From assembly GCF_001592305.1 (NCBI RefSeq), contig NZ_BCWR01000005.1, positions 310,001 through 374,000 of the forward strand: DNA of 64,000 bases. Reading direction: 5' to 3'. A program made the translations under genes and the position numbers. Origin of the DNA: Hydrogenophaga taeniospiralis CCUG 15921 (GTDB taxonomy: Bacteria; Pseudomonadota; Gammaproteobacteria; Burkholderiales; Burkholderiaceae_C). The notes beneath the pieces were generated by a model, which did no database searches, was not told the origin of the DNA, and saw only the letters and a list, made by a program, of their open reading frames with translations. Below are positions 30,822 through 35,535 of this stretch, piece by piece (within the stretch, counting starts at the first letter, position 1; each line of letters begins with the position of its first letter).

Positions 30822-31676
30822 TCAGGAGCCCCAGATGTCCACGCCAGGGACGTGCTTCTCGGCGAGTTCTTTCCACTTGCCGTTGTCGCGGATGGCCTTG
30901 ATGCCCGCATCCAGCGCATCACGCAGGGCCGTGTCTTCCTTGCGGATCGCCACACCGGCGCCAGCGCCAAAGTACTTCTCGAACTCGACCGGAACGCGGC
31001 CGCCCGCACAAGAGTAGTCCTTGCCGTCCGGGGTGGACAGGAAACCGCCGTTGACTTCGACCACGTCGGCCACGGTGCCGTCCAGGCGGCCGGACTTGAT
31101 GTCCAGGTAGACCTGATCCTGCGCGTCGTAAGGCACGATGGTGGCGCCCGCGGGCTGGAGTTCGCCCATGGCGTATTTCTCTTGCGTGGATGCCTTGAGC
31201 ACGCCGATCTTCTTGCCCTTGAAGTTGGCCGCTTCCGCACCCAGGTTCAGCGCCGACTTCACCACCACGCACGACGGCGTGTTGTAGTACTTGCCCGTGA
31301 AATCCACGGCCTGCTTGCGTTCCTCGGTGATCGACATCGAGGAAATGATGGCGTCGTACTTCTTGGCCTGCAGGCCGGGGATCATGCCGTCCCAGGCTTG
31401 CTCGACGAAGACACACTTGCTCTTGAGCTCGTCACACAGGGCCTTGGCGATGTCCACGTCAAAACCGGCGGGTTCGCCAGCTTCGGTCTTGTAGGTGAAC
31501 GGCTTGTAGGTCGGGTCGATGGCGACGCGCAACTCGGGCCACTGGCTGGCGGGAGCGGGTGCCGCAGCCGCGGGCTCGGCCGGTGCAGGCGCAGCAGGCG
31601 CTGGCGCTTCGGTCTTGCCGCAGCCCACCAACGTGGCTGCACCAATCAGGCTCAGGGAAAGAATCAGGTTTTTCAT
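30822..31676 (-). CDS. aotJ: Amino acid-binding lipoprotein of the ABC importer
   Basis: The 284-residue protein is a family 3 solute-binding protein for basic or polar amino acids (HisJ/ArgT/AotJ type). Unlike most soluble ones it carries a lipobox (LVGC at the end of the signal peptide), then an Ala/Pro/Glu linker of about 25 residues. The binding fold shows RVAIDPTYKPFTYK, GFDVDIAKALCDEL, the WDGMIPGLQAKKYDAIISSMSITEERK signature split over one region, and VPYDAQDQVYLDIKSGRLDG. It is first in the operon. Promoter sequences should lie between 31677 and the dif-like site at 31860; no clear pair was seen. Confidence 0.92.
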   Translation of the reverse strand: MKNLILSLSLIGAATLVGCGKTEAPAPAAPAPAEPAAAAPAPASQWPELRVAIDPTYKPFTYKTEAGEPAGFDVDIAKALCDELKSKCVFVEQAWDGMIPGLQAKKYDAIISSMSITEERKQAVDFTGKYYNTPSCVVVKSALNLGAEAANFKGKKIGVLKASTQEKYAMGELQPAGATIVPYDAQDQVYLDIKSGRLDGTVADVVEVNGGFLSTPDGKDYSCAGGRVPVEFEKYFGAGAGVAIRKEDTALRDALDAGIKAIRDNGKWKELAEKHVPGVDIWGS

Positions 31677-31859: not shown

Positions 31860-31887
31860 GCTTAACATAATATACATCGTGGAACAT
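31860..31887 (-). other. dif: dif-like XerC/XerD recombination site (complete)
   Basis: The XerD arm GCTTAACATAA (31860-31870), core TATACA (31871-31876) and XerC arm TCGTGGAACAT (31877-31887) give the 11-6-11 layout. On the minus strand the core and XerD arm read TGTATATTATGTTAAGC, nearly identical to the E. coli dif half (TTATGTTAAAT). The XerC arm departs from the usual GGTGCGCATAA. It is probably the functional chromosome dimer-resolution site. Confidence 0.8.
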
Positions 31888-31930
31888 CAAACCACCAGCC
31901 CGAAAACAGCCCTGCAGCCCTGAAGCCCGC

Positions 31931-32863
31931 ATGGAACAAGGAACCCGGTTCAAAGCCATGTACGCCAGCCTGGGCCTCACGGTCGATGACGTGGCGAATT
32001 TTCTTCAGGTGTCACCTCGCACGGTGCAACTGTGGATCTCGGGGCGCGTGCGCATCCCTTACGCGGCCTACAAGCTGATGCGGCTGCAACTGCGCTACGA
32101 GCTGCCGGGTGATGCCTGGAAAGGCTGGCACCTGAGCGCTGGCCGGCTGTACACGCCTGAGGGCCTTGAGCTGAACCCGCACGATTTCAGCTGGTGGGGT
32201 CTGCTGGTGCGACGGGCTGCGATGTTCTCGGTCTGTTACACGGAACTGGTGAGCTTGCGGGCCGCCTGGTTGGGGGCGCTTGCGCACACGTCCGGGCGGC
32301 CCGCAGGCGATGTTCGGAGCTATGCTGAACCATGTGCTCAAAGTTTTGCGCCCGCCCTGGAAGTGTCCGCGCGAAGCGCCCCCGATGGTAATCACGGGGA
32401 GATTTATGTTGTAGGTGGGGCCAGTTTGGGGCCATACTGCTACGCATGGCCATCAACATACGTCTTTCACCCACTCTCGAAGCCCTTGCGCGGCAGTACT
32501 GCGAGCGCGTCGGCATCAGTCTTAACTCGCTCGTCGGCGTCTCTCTTGACGCCTATTTGCGACAGTCTGAGCGACCGTCTGTCACCTCTGCATCTGAGCC
32601 ACCTGCTCCGGCACTCGGTCCAAGTCCTGCCCCTGTCGTGCCTTTTGCCCCGCCTGACCCTGCCCTGCTCCAGCGGCATCGAGACCTCAAAGCAGAAGAG
32701 CAGCAGCGCATTCAGCGGTTCCGGGAACTCAAGGAAGCACAGCAAGGGCTCGCGCCATCTGATCCCAAGCCAGTGTTACCGGCGAACCCCACGAAGGCCG
32801 ACCGCACTCGCCTTGCGCAGTGGCACCAGCGCAACCCCTCCAAGTGATCAAGGGGGGCACTGA
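31931..32863 (+). CDS. VC1465 family Xer recombination activation factor (XafT-like), with doubtful C-terminal extension
   Basis: The first 110 residues match the VC1465/XafT type: a helix-turn-helix LTVDDVANFLQVSPRTVQLW, then RVRIPYAAYKLMRLQLRYELPG and DAWKGWHLSAGRLYTPEG with NPHDFSWWGLLVRRA. XafT of the TLC satellite phage activates XerD so that XerCD can recombine sites lacking a good XerD arm. The frame continues to 310 residues, but from about residue 172 it overlaps the next gene in another frame and becomes Ser/Leu/Pro-rich, which looks like shadow sequence. A lost stop codon or frameshift after about residue 150 is likely. Ribosome site is weak. Confidence 0.75.
   Translation: MEQGTRFKAMYASLGLTVDDVANFLQVSPRTVQLWISGRVRIPYAAYKLMRLQLRYELPGDAWKGWHLSAGRLYTPEGLELNPHDFSWWGLLVRRAAMFSVCYTELVSLRAAWLGALAHTSGRPAGDVRSYAEPCAQSFAPALEVSARSAPDGNHGEIYVVGGASLGPYCYAWPSTYVFHPLSKPLRGSTASASASVLTRSSASLLTPICDSLSDRLSPLHLSHLLRHSVQVLPLSCLLPRLTLPCSSGIETSKQKSSSAFSGSGNSRKHSKGSRHLIPSQCYRRTPRRPTALALRSGTSATPPSDQGGH
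32446..32847 (+). CDS. Small protein with ribbon-helix-helix-like N-terminus
   Basis: The 133-residue protein begins MAINIRLSPTLEALARQY, then VGISLNSLVGVSLDAYL: a strand followed by two helices, as in Arc/CopG-type DNA-binding proteins. The rest is Pro-rich and charged (PAPVVPFAPPDPALLQRH, then EEQQRIQRFRELKEAQQG). It may regulate the element or its copy number (inference). The start overlaps the extended XafT-like frame; codon pattern and a plausible fold favour this frame as real. Confidence 0.65.
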   Translation: MAINIRLSPTLEALARQYCERVGISLNSLVGVSLDAYLRQSERPSVTSASEPPAPALGPSPAPVVPFAPPDPALLQRHRDLKAEEQQRIQRFRELKEAQQGLAPSDPKPVLPANPTKADRTRLAQWHQRNPSK

Positions 32864-33150
32864 TGCACTCCCTGGACACGAAAAGCGCCGCGTACATGCG
32901 TGGCTATCGGGCTGGGTTCCGTGTCGGCTCTGGACGGGCGCAGAAGCCGGTGGACCCTGAATATCGGCGCGGCTATCGCTCTGGTCATCAGGCTGCGGTG
33001 CGTCGAAAGCTTGCGAATCAAGCTGCATCGGCTGTTCTGCGTACACCGCGCAAACGGGTATCGCATGCCCTCCCTGAGGGTCAGGCACTGCGGATCGTGC
33101 AGGCCGACCCCTTGATGGCCGCATTCCGGCCGCTGGGGGGTGTGTCTTAA
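32863..33150 (+). CDS. Small basic protein of the element
   Basis: A 95-residue basic protein that I do not recognise. It contains two related Tyr/Arg/Gly units, AAYMRGYRAGFRVGSGR and EYRRGYRSGHQAAVRR, separated by a short linker, suggesting a tandem nucleic-acid or membrane-surface binding motif. A purine-rich ribosome site (AAGGGGGG) lies just before ATG 32863, the best in the element. It starts 15 bases after the stop of the ribbon-helix-helix-like gene. Confidence 0.6.
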   Translation: MHSLDTKSAAYMRGYRAGFRVGSGRAQKPVDPEYRRGYRSGHQAAVRRKLANQAASAVLRTPRKRVSHALPEGQALRIVQADPLMAAFRPLGGVS

Positions 33151-33178
33151 GTCCTCTGGTAGGCGTTTACAAAGCGAA

Positions 33179-33207
33179 ATGCCCAGGTGGTAGCAACACC
33201 CGGGCAT
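33179..33207 (+). other. Stem-loop within the element
   Basis: ATGCCCAGGTG at 33179-33189 pairs with CACCCGGGCAT at 33197-33207 with a single mismatch and a 7-base loop. It lies in the 91-base gap between two element genes. Such a hairpin could be a terminator or processing site, or a single-strand origin or packaging signal if the element is phage-derived. It has no U-tract right after it. Confidence 0.5.
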
Positions 33208-33241
33208 CTCTAACCAAATTGAAAAATCTGAGGTCTCAAAA

Positions 33242-33583
33242 ATGGCTAAGCCTAAGTCTACATCTCGTGTCCGTCGTGGTGATCCTGAATTTGAACGCGA
33301 CTATCTGTTGCGTATGGGATTGGTGAAAGCGGCGGGCCTTGCTCCCCTTGACTGGTCTGCTCACCTGGGTGAGCTGCAAGAGCTGCTCTCCTCCTGTGAG
33401 TTCCTGCTGCCGGTGGCAGAGGTGTCGGCGCGTCCTGGCAACGCTCCTGAGGTGGTTGCGCTGTGGCTCAAGGCCGTTGCCGCGACCGCTCGTATTCGAA
33501 TCGCCAATTGTGGGGGTATGGGGGCTGTGGCCCCCATGGTGACACAAGAGGTTGATAGCCAATTGATCAATACGCGGAAGTAA
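33242..33583 (+). CDS. Small hypothetical protein of the element
   Basis: A 113-residue protein with a basic start (MAKPKSTSRVRRGDPEFER), a central helical part (LGELQELLSSCEFLLPVAEV, then VVALWLKAVAATARIRIA) and a short glycine-rich tail. No family recognised and no membrane segment. GAGG sits 8 bases before the ATG. Codons rich in T at third positions differ from neighbouring chromosomal genes. It is last before the element terminator. Confidence 0.6.
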   Translation: MAKPKSTSRVRRGDPEFERDYLLRMGLVKAAGLAPLDWSAHLGELQELLSSCEFLLPVAEVSARPGNAPEVVALWLKAVAATARIRIANCGGMGAVAPMVTQEVDSQLINTRK

Positions 33584-33609
33584 CCTAGTTACGCCAATTA
33601 AGTCATTCG

Positions 33610-33634
33610 CGCCCTGAAAAACGGGCGTTTATTT
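33610..33634 (+). terminator. Rho-independent-type terminator of the element
   Basis: CGCCC (33610-33614) pairs with GGGCG (33623-33627) around an A-rich loop, followed by TTTATTT. It lies 27 bases after the last element gene and 36 bases before the second dif-like site. Confidence 0.65.
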
Positions 33635-33669
33635 GCGCTTCAATTGAAAGAATTTCGCTATGATTAAAT

Positions 33670-33697
33670 CTAATTCGCGATATACATCGTGGAATAT
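33670..33697 (-). other. Second dif-like site with degenerate XerD arm
   Basis: The core TATACA (33681-33686) and XerC-arm side TCGTGGAATAT (33687-33697) repeat the first site with one mismatch, and similarity continues about 6 bases beyond. The XerD arm position reads CTAATTCGCGA and lost the TTAACATAA match. This is the arrangement expected for a phage-type attachment site that needs a Xer activation factor. Confidence 0.7.
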
Positions 33698-34023: not shown

Positions 34024-35535
34024 TCAGTCTTCGACAAAGGCCTCTTCGCGTTTCTTCTTGATCGACGGCATGAGCACCACCACCAGCAACAGGGCCGCGA
34101 TGGCCAGCAGGCTGGCGGACAACGGCCGCGTGACGAACACCGACCAGTCGCCGCGTGAGATCAGCAGCGCCCGGCGCAGATACTCTTCCATCATCGGCCC
34201 CAGGATCAACCCGAGCAACAGAGGCGCAGGCTCGCAGCCGAGCTTGATGAAGATGTAGCCGATCAGGCCGAACAACGCCACCATCCAGATATCGAACACG
34301 TTGTTGTTGGTGGAATAGACCCCCACGGCACAGAACAGCACGATGGCCGGGAACAGCCACTTGTACGGCACGGTCAGCAGCTTGATCCAGATGCCGATCA
34401 GCGGCAGGTTCAGGATGATCAGCATCGCGTTGCCGATCCACATCGAGGCGATCAGGCCCCAGAACAGTTCCGGGTTGCTGGTCATGACCTGCGGGCCGGG
34501 CTGGATGTTGTGGATGGTCATGGCACCGACCATGAGCGCCATCACGGCGTTGGGCGGAATGCCCAGGGTCAGCAGGGGGATGAACGAGGTCTGGGCTCCC
34601 GCGTTGTTGGCGGCTTCCGGTGCGGCCACGCCGCGGATATTGCCCTGTCCAAAGGGCACTTCACCCGGGTGCAGCTTGGTTTTCTTCTCGATCGTGTAGG
34701 CCGTGAACGAAGACAGCAAGGCGCCGCCACCGGGCAGGATGCCCAGCACCGACCCCAGCGCGGTGCCCCGCAGCACGGCGGGAAGCATGCGTTTGAAATC
34801 GGCGGCCGTCGGCATGATGCCGTGCACATCGCCCGTGAAGACCTCGCGGTGTTCATCGGGCCGAGACAGATTGCTGATGATCTCGCCGTAACCGAACACG
34901 CCCATGGCGATGGCCAGGAAGCTGATGCCGTCGGTGAGTTCGGGAATGTCGAAACTGAAACGCGCCACCCCGGAGTTCACGTCGGTGCCCACCAGACCCA
35001 GCAGCAGACCGAGCACGATCATGGCCAGCGCCTTGAGCAGCGAGCCCGAAGCCAGCACCACGGCACCGATGAGACCCACGACCATGAGGGCGAAATACTC
35101 CGCGGGGCCGAACTTCAGCGCGATTTCGGTCAGCGGAGGCGCGAAGGCGGCCAGGATGAGGGTGCCCACGCACCCGGCGAAGAAGGACCCCAGACCGGCC
35201 GCGGCAAGGGCGGGCCCCGCCCTGCCCTTGCGCGCCATCTGGTAGCCGTCGATCACCGTCACCACCGACGAAGACTCGCCGGGCAGGTTCACCAGGATGG
35301 CGGTGGTGGAGCCGCCGTACTGTGCACCGTAGTAGATGCCGGCCAGCATGATCAGCGCCGCCACCGGGGGCAGACCGTAGGTGGCGGGCAGCAGCATGGC
35401 AATGGTCGCCAGCGGACCGATGCCTGGCAGCACGCCGATCAGGGTGCCCAGCAGGCAGCCGACGAAGGCGTAGATGAGGTTCTGGAAGGTGAAGGCGACG
35501 CCGAACCCCAGCGACAAGTGGTCAAACAGTTCCAT
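34024..35535 (-). CDS. tctA: Tripartite tricarboxylate transporter, large membrane subunit TctA
   Basis: A 503-residue membrane protein with about twelve helices, the large permease of tripartite tricarboxylate transporters that import citrate-like acids using a periplasmic binding protein. Family motifs include GVLPGIGPLATIAMLLPATYGL, YGAQYGGSTTAILVNLPGESSS split over the loop, and the second GILPGGGALLSSFTAY, both the repeated Gly-rich loops of TctA. The C-terminus is basic (IKKKREEAFVED). It lies 15 bases after tctB. No tctC binding-protein gene is adjacent, so it likely works with a binding protein encoded elsewhere. Confidence 0.93.
   Translation of the reverse strand: MELFDHLSLGFGVAFTFQNLIYAFVGCLLGTLIGVLPGIGPLATIAMLLPATYGLPPVAALIMLAGIYYGAQYGGSTTAILVNLPGESSSVVTVIDGYQMARKGRAGPALAAAGLGSFFAGCVGTLILAAFAPPLTEIALKFGPAEYFALMVVGLIGAVVLASGSLLKALAMIVLGLLLGLVGTDVNSGVARFSFDIPELTDGISFLAIAMGVFGYGEIISNLSRPDEHREVFTGDVHGIMPTAADFKRMLPAVLRGTALGSVLGILPGGGALLSSFTAYTIEKKTKLHPGEVPFGQGNIRGVAAPEAANNAGAQTSFIPLLTLGIPPNAVMALMVGAMTIHNIQPGPQVMTSNPELFWGLIASMWIGNAMLIILNLPLIGIWIKLLTVPYKWLFPAIVLFCAVGVYSTNNNVFDIWMVALFGLIGYIFIKLGCEPAPLLLGLILGPMMEEYLRRALLISRGDWSVFVTRPLSASLLAIAALLLVVVLMPSIKKKREEAFVED

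Follow-up and report, generated by a model that had tools for sequence, protein, structure and literature searches.

What kind of element can be accommodated between two dif-like sites whose cores lie 1,810 bp apart? The question is raised by an insert in Hydrogenophaga taeniospiralis CCUG 15921, located within a window of 64,000 nucleotides (contig NZ_BCWR01000005.1, positions 310,001 to 374,000; coordinates below are those of the window) of a genome of 5.28 Mb in 53 contigs. The initial annotation, made from the letters alone, had suggested a minimal Xer-dependent element, either a very small satellite depending on a helper phage or a decayed filamentous prophage. The satellite proposal gains support from origin-like and hairpin sequences common to the element and to filamentous phages (inoviruses), and we consider it most probable (about 0.78) that the window element is a helper-dependent inovirus satellite which sits at dif and has the make-up of a natural phagemid.

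The two sequences which carry this reading were absent from the initial annotation: an origin-like motif, designated T3, downstream of the gene xafT, and a GC-rich hairpin, designated hairpin A, near the right end. The element was compared by blastn with a set of 61 inovirus loci, comprising 40 regions around the gene for Zot (mostly from genomes of the same family) and 21 viral contigs; handles beginning with L or G are our own labels. Just two matches were obtained, that of T3 to L229 and that of hairpin A to L096. The former is identical over 27 of 27 bp (32376-32402), and in L229 the open reading frame (ORF) of a replication initiator (Rep) of the Rep_trans type (PF02486) begins 32 bp after the first base of T3; the latter extends over 33 bp with 94% identity. 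With up to three mismatches allowed, T3 occurs once in the window's genome and the long-stem pattern of hairpin A finds the window copy alone, while the short-stem pattern finds nothing, the window copy included.

The boundaries are those of a Xer-mediated insertion at dif, the site at which bacteria resolve their chromosomes. The dif core with its XerC arm is present at exactly two sites genome-wide (up to two mismatches), attL and attR, so that the pair of sites and the spacing reported initially were borne out. attL is intact, with the XerD arm GCTTAACATAA on the left and the XerC arm GGAACAT on the right when read on the forward strand. The second site proved dif-like in part: it shares the centre and the XerC arm with attL, but its XerD arm is degenerate. 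The same anatomy is described for TLC-phi (PMC4246890, PMC5357621), the attP of which has a dif-like centre and XerC arm, whereas its XerD arm departs from dif. The window element is TLC-type by integration, having yielded two dif-like sites upon insertion at dif. Its GC content of 59%, against 61-72% in most kilobases of the window, agrees with the lower GC remarked on at first.

The insertion site is also used by other elements. The insert is flanked by an amino-acid ABC transporter gene (30822-31676, reverse strand) and a tctA-like gene (34024-35535, reverse strand), both labelled by us from sequence. Orthologs of both genes enclose different elements in three other genomes, namely one of 2010 bp in G052, a tandem of 1417 and 1507 bp in G001 and one of 991 bp in G012. 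A single dif adjoins the ortholog of the left gene in G005 and G021, and that of the right gene in G007. These differing elements and single sites support the proposal of a Xer-dependent element at dif. The comparison with relatives lacking the insert, which had been recommended as a check, thus succeeded for one flank or the other and never for both in one genome; an empty dif between both flanks was found in no genome examined.

The insert carries, in order, attL, xafT, T3, ORF2, ORF3, ORF4 (ending in hairpin A), a terminator-like repeat and attR (Table 1). The product of the first ORF matched NF040522 (VC1465_fam) with 91.3 bits (cut-off 70, E 3.8e-26), and DUF3653 above its cut-off too, confirming the VC1465/XafT-like gene recognised at the outset and placing an Xer activator gene in the element, as in TLC-type elements. 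The frame remains open to 32863 (310 residues), overlapping ORF2 in a different frame, and the XafT domain occupies the first ~105 residues. The three genes that follow had been called small and without recognised family, and they remain so: ORFs 2-4 matched no Pfam or NCBIfam family above cut-off, and the best E-value against PHROGs, where no cut-off exists, was only 0.011. The C-terminal GGMGAVAPM of ORF4 is the translation of hairpin A. An inverted repeat followed by a T-run is indeed present where a terminator had been proposed, but it is weak, folding no better than shuffled sequences (z 0.34).

Table 1. Features of the element inserted at dif (positions in the window)
Feature	Position	Strand	Basis or remark
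attL, intact chromosomal-type dif	31860..31887	-	Sequence GCTTAACATAATATACATCGTGGAACAT
xafT, VC1465-family Xer recombination activation factor (domain)	31931..32266	+	NF040522, DUF3653, alignment of 16 sequences
T3 motif CCCCCGATGGTAATCACGGGG, candidate origin of plus-strand (rolling-circle) replication by a helper Rep of the Rep_trans type	32379..32399	+	Match to inovirus L229
Two direct repeats TGGGGCCA directly upstream of ORF2, candidate operator	32416..32434	+	Sequence
ORF2, HicB/ribbon-helix-helix (RHH)-like DNA-binding protein	32446..32847	+	Cluster of 14 proteins from 14 elements
ORF3, protein of 95 residues, no family	32863..33150	+	Pfam, NCBIfam and PHROGs searches
ORF4, protein of 113 residues, no family	33242..33583	+	Resembles the protein of the G076 element (by eye)
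Hairpin A GGGGGTATGGGGGCTGTGGCCCCCAT, candidate signal for packaging by filamentous phages (or minus-strand origin)	33512..33537	+	Folds as a hairpin
Terminator-like inverted repeat (CGCCC/GGGCG) with T-run	33610..33635	+	Sequence
attR, dif-like, degenerate XerD arm (CTAATTCGCGA), TLC type	33670..33697	-	Sequence CTAATTCGCGATATACATCGTGGAATAT

The window element belongs to a family of similar mini-elements. XafT exceeded its cut-off in 6 of the 67 genus genomes and 16 of the 399 family genomes; across the class it did so in only 2 of 369 sampled genomes, which both belong to the window's genus. A scan of named genomes gave 47 XafT loci (in Hydrogenophaga, Polaromonas, Rhodoferax, Acidovorax, Variovorax, Xylophilus, Comamonas and others). 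Forty elements were delimited, from 29 of these loci together with seven from the window and other genomes, the window element included; the 18 loci lacking a resolved att pair, many of which are cut by contig ends, were left out of the counts, L139 among them because it is a repeat of G312a. The initial annotation had named relatives carrying the same genes and no second dif-like site as what would refute it; no such relative was met among the 29 loci at which a pair of sites was resolved. No dif core was found near XafT at three of the 47 loci (L152, L171 and L172). The elements are 875-2728 bp long (median 1413, n = 40), some standing in tandem; the identical copies L157 and L157b count as two, and the length of L127 is assumed, its left att not having been found and its start having been set at the usual distance from xafT. 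The left XerD arm has at most two of nine mismatches to TTAACATAA in 31 of the 40 elements, the other nine being five downstream tandem copies, L127, L134, L148 (whose flank contains an upstream element) and G076. The right arm has 4-7 of nine mismatches in all 40.

Could such elements be what is left of ordinary inoviruses that lost most of their genes between the dif sites, as the initial annotation had offered as its alternative? Origin-like and hairpin sequences common with inoviruses might be expected of remnants, and the largest element, G312a (2728 bp), retains a Rep. Against this, the order att, xafT, motif, small genes, att is uniform across the 40 elements, none of the 40 XafT cores contains a stop, and the ratio of nonsynonymous to synonymous differences (pN/pS) is 0-0.50 for XafT (11 pairs picked by us) and 0.11-0.45 for the RHH family of ORF2 (seven pairs, likewise picked). 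Identical tandem copies exist, two each in L157 and in the viral contig L245 (1958 bp in the latter). No element matched the Zot set, and a full match to seven inovirus Rep seeds was given by G312a alone, with a match of 42 residues in L166; the seeds were taken from motif-positive loci, so that Rep types unlike them would be missed. For the small element proteins, those of the RHH family included, a search of the inovirus loci gave no convincing homolog (one weak match, E 0.042). Decay is therefore a very improbable account of the family.

The reverse possibility is a self-sufficient micro-phage, in which one of the small ORFs would encode an unrecognised coat protein or Rep. ORF3 and ORF4, belonging to no known family, leave some place for it. 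However, the small genes vary between elements while the cis signals recur, and elements of 875-991 bp have little room beyond XafT and one small ORF, so we give this explanation hardly any credence. The lack of Zot matches in the elements and in the window's genome sets the window element apart from an Inoviridae prophage, which is recognised by Zot/pI and coat genes. That no element matched Zot and that ORFs 2-4 have no family agrees with a satellite lacking coat and assembly genes, although small coat proteins could escape profile searches. XafT had no tblastn match in phage and plasmid collections, and the whole window element had none to phages in a distant blastn search.

The sequence between xafT and the small cargo genes holds one of four origin-like motifs, T1 in 14 elements, T2 in eight, T3 in six and T4 in four, and two types never occur in one element. 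Each type is also found in inoviruses. T3 is present in 13 of the 61 loci, all with a Rep of the RepTrans class, and T1 in three, all with a phrog_3419-type Rep. T2 is present in eight loci, of which six have a phrog_2969-type Rep, one is unclassed and one (L207, a loose match with three mismatches) has a Phage_CRI Rep; the single locus with T4 is again L207. The same picture was obtained when all 40 elements were compared with the 61 loci by unguided blastn, where matches fell in att (64), after xafT (67), at the right end (43) and in the rep gene of G312a (5), and nowhere else. Four of the 67 post-xafT matches lie on the minus strand of L236, which has T2 solely on the strand opposite Zot, and 37 of the 43 right-end matches overlap hairpin A. 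Control flanks of 319 kb gave one match, the control leaving out L139, L148 and L152 as they hold neighbouring mini-elements (104 matches with those three in).

Where typed elements matched classed loci after xafT, 46 of 46 matches agreed with the pairing of motif and Rep class (T1 11, T2 16, T3 16, T4 3), although these are not all independent: 24 elements and 18 loci contribute, 41 matches are left without the identical copy L157b, and 32 are at loci that gave no Rep seed. Judged by these sequence matches, at least four types of post-xafT motif exist, and the inoviruses matched by any one type share a Rep class. The post-xafT region of L151 is likely to be a fifth origin type, common to L113, L199, L107, L110 and L112, four of which have a Rep not classified by the seeds. 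Separately, some tandem arrays mix types (T1 and T2 in L128 and in L156, an unassigned type and T2 in L154), as if satellites for different helpers coexisted at one dif.

Hairpin A was detected in 27 of the 40 elements, including all six with T3, and never on the opposite strand. Its outer stem is fixed by the search pattern; the seventh pair (n = 44) is C-G in 20 cases, G-C in 14, T-A in seven, T-G in one and unpaired in two. Pattern scans located it immediately past the stop of Zot in three IMG/VR contigs, all of them Zot-carrying inoviruses, and among the 40 Zot regions it stands 5-620 bp past the Zot stop in ten and elsewhere in two, always on the Zot strand. It occurs with several Rep classes (RepTrans 5 of 23 loci, RepT2 6 of 13, RepT1 6 of 12, CRI 1 of 4, unclassed 1 of 9). 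Origin motif and hairpin are present together in two of three T1 loci, two of six T2 loci and the one T4 locus.

In filamentous phages the packaging signal and the minus-strand origin are both intergenic, and hairpin A might be either. A variant of the satellite reading, whose odds overlap with it, would make the hairpin a minus-strand (conversion) origin or another replication signal in place of a packaging signal. Occurrence with several Rep classes is expected of either, and the position right after Zot in ten of 40 family loci would also suit recognition by the assembly machinery, so that the two roles are not separable on these data; we regard the variant as a possibility well worth keeping in mind, though at less than even odds. 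A short ORF beginning like M-S-x-F-T-D-R-L-Y-x-x-W is conserved in ten of the 40 elements (L134, L136, L141, L144, L151, L154, L155, the two copies of L157 and G254), where it stands just before hairpin A if one is found; this start is absent from the 61 inovirus loci and from the flanks (548 kb of strand-bases).

Some elements are physically close to potential helpers. In G198 a T4 element (contig C22, ~16 kb) and a T4 inovirus (C22, ~72 kb) are located on one contig, with 83% identity over ~113 bp at the motif. The viral contigs L242, L243 and L245 carry inovirus genes, with Zot ending 1.7-2.1 kb to the left of dif, followed by one or more XafT elements (that of L242 is incomplete in the stretch examined). 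Dif-like sites, some with up to three mismatches, were found in ten of the 40 inovirus regions.

Besides the Rep types and homologs that the searches may have missed or did not find, several observations weigh against the satellite reading. In the window's genome there is neither a Zot match nor a further copy of T3 or hairpin A, so that no resident helper was found in it, and Zot was met in the examined flank of none of 68 element loci, some of which overlap. Zot co-occurs with XafT to a moderate degree, being present in 6 of 17 XafT genomes and in 44 of 382 others (Fisher p 0.012, both counts being taken as the same 399 genomes). Neither a packaged nor a circular form of an element was seen; L242-L246 are contigs from a viral collection. 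Detection by pattern also falls short: the origin type is unassigned in eight of the 40 elements, hairpin A was not detected in 13 elements and 42 of the 61 inovirus loci, and the motif patterns found none of T1-T4 in the flanks, three of which (L139, L148 and L152) hold neighbouring elements whose copies were thus missed. Finally, among the 13 T3 inoviruses the hairpin was detected in L233 and L112 only, just after Zot in neither, and a looser pattern gained no further one. Candidate origin and packaging sequences are common to elements and inoviruses, but no T3 inovirus was seen to have the two together after Zot. That one phage can supply both functions is thus indicated by T1, T2 and T4 loci, and not clearly by those with T3. 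The possible explanations might be a variant signal missed by the pattern, packaging by another inovirus or another role of the hairpin. Because hairpin A was mostly not detected by pattern in T3 inoviruses, our confidence in the satellite reading was lowered from 0.83.

The same observations (a genome without helper, no Zot in the 68 flanks, a hairpin rare in T3 inoviruses) would suit a mobile cassette relying on Xer alone, comparable to pdif modules or islands, which would move by XerCD/XafT together with other gene transfer and whose motifs would be relics or regulatory sites. The strand- and position-specific sharing with inoviruses and the pairing of motif with Rep class are hard to explain without replication by a helper, and this explanation seems unlikely to us.

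The window element, as an inovirus satellite, might then live as follows, every functional step being predicted from sequence. Host XerC and XerD, activated by the XafT of the element rather than by FtsK, would recombine the attP of its circular form, in which the XerD arm is degenerate, with dif. The left end would then be an intact dif and the right end a degenerate one; as the intact dif is kept, further elements could join and form arrays. Excision would be the reverse reaction. Upon entry of an inovirus whose Rep is of the Rep_trans type, this Rep would nick T3 and copy the element by rolling circle. The single strand would then be extruded in a short filament by Zot/pI and coat proteins of the same or another inovirus, hairpin A being the signal that they recognise. 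For the RHH protein encoded by ORF2 the probable role is repression of its own operon, control of immunity or copy number, or both. Extended to the family, it seems probable that natural phagemids of 0.9-2.7 kb are widespread in Comamonadaceae-type bacteria, consisting of dif att sites, an Xer activator, one helper-specific origin (of at least four interchangeable types, each for another helper Rep class) and mostly a packaging hairpin, with satellites for different helpers side by side in dif arrays.

How does such an element compare with known systems? Laboratory phagemids and miniphages likewise combine a phage origin with a packaging signal and obtain the rest from a helper; unlike them, the window element is natural, integrative and equipped with a dedicated Xer activator. 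RS1, the satellite of CTX-phi, has rst genes of its own, and to our knowledge lacks XafT; we know of no use of Xer or dif by PICMI satellites. A XafT-family gene is presumably common to the window element and TLC-phi, judging by the name of NF040522. TLC-phi, the toxin-linked cryptic satellite phage of Vibrio cholerae and an integrative mobile element exploiting Xer (IMEX) of the TLC type, further resembles the window element in dif integration, a degenerate XerD arm of attP and the absence of morphogenesis genes (PMC4246890, PMC5357621). It possesses an autonomous replication module (PMC4246890), whereas the window element has no Rep match and an origin-like motif matching one Rep class; in the family, 39 of 40 elements have no full Rep-seed match. 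The window element is thus not a TLC-phi. RS1 is also an inovirus satellite at dif (PMC4246890 and PMC11389934), but is placed in the CTX integration class in a table of the former. The inovirus-dependent pDolos of Shewanella (PMC13230959; also cited in PMC11389934) is a plasmid satellite and not an insert at dif. PICMI, which are minimalist phage satellites with similarly reduced gene content (PMC10803314), are satellites of virulent phages in Vibrionaceae. A full-text literature search gave no description of Rep-less dif satellites, which is weak evidence as preprints and most subscription papers are outside its coverage. The elements are best read as a variant of known inovirus satellites, new in form.

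If this is true, few phage satellites of smaller size would be known, and phage parasitism would be reducible to cis signals and one Xer activator in ~1 kb. Filamentous phages, with their single-stranded DNA, would bear an easily overlooked satellite load outside Vibrio, and some tiny inserts at dif sites might be accounted for. From the motif type one could predict the helper Rep by which a satellite is copied, and pairs of motif and Rep would provide candidate origins for several little-studied inovirus Rep families.

Weak HicB matches were found in nine of 11 aligned members of the ORF2 cluster (best E 0.002), a PDB search with the RHH profile gave no useful match, and the family is present in T2 and T3 elements. 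ORF2 is a candidate autoregulating repressor or an immunity or copy-control protein. Other RHH genes are preceded at the equivalent place by different repeats or palindromes (compared by eye only), and these differing operator-like repeats suggest that the family may comprise repressors with type-specific immunity, which is a guess.

Two further observations concern the inoviruses. A small gene with a helix-turn-helix-like product (L243:5457-5813, reverse strand), having no Pfam match at E 0.01, recurs in L221, L237, L112, L216, L228, L225, L106, L215 and L230, several copies being near a dif-like site; it is possibly the helpers' own Xer accessory factor. At L019 (G007:C1, ~2362156), where no Zot-like ORF was noticed, without a dedicated search, a tRNA-like sequence adjoins an element with hairpin A, a Rep_trans Rep and a phage integrase by a gene resembling those of insertion sequences, and this is perhaps a second, integrase-using kind of inovirus satellite.

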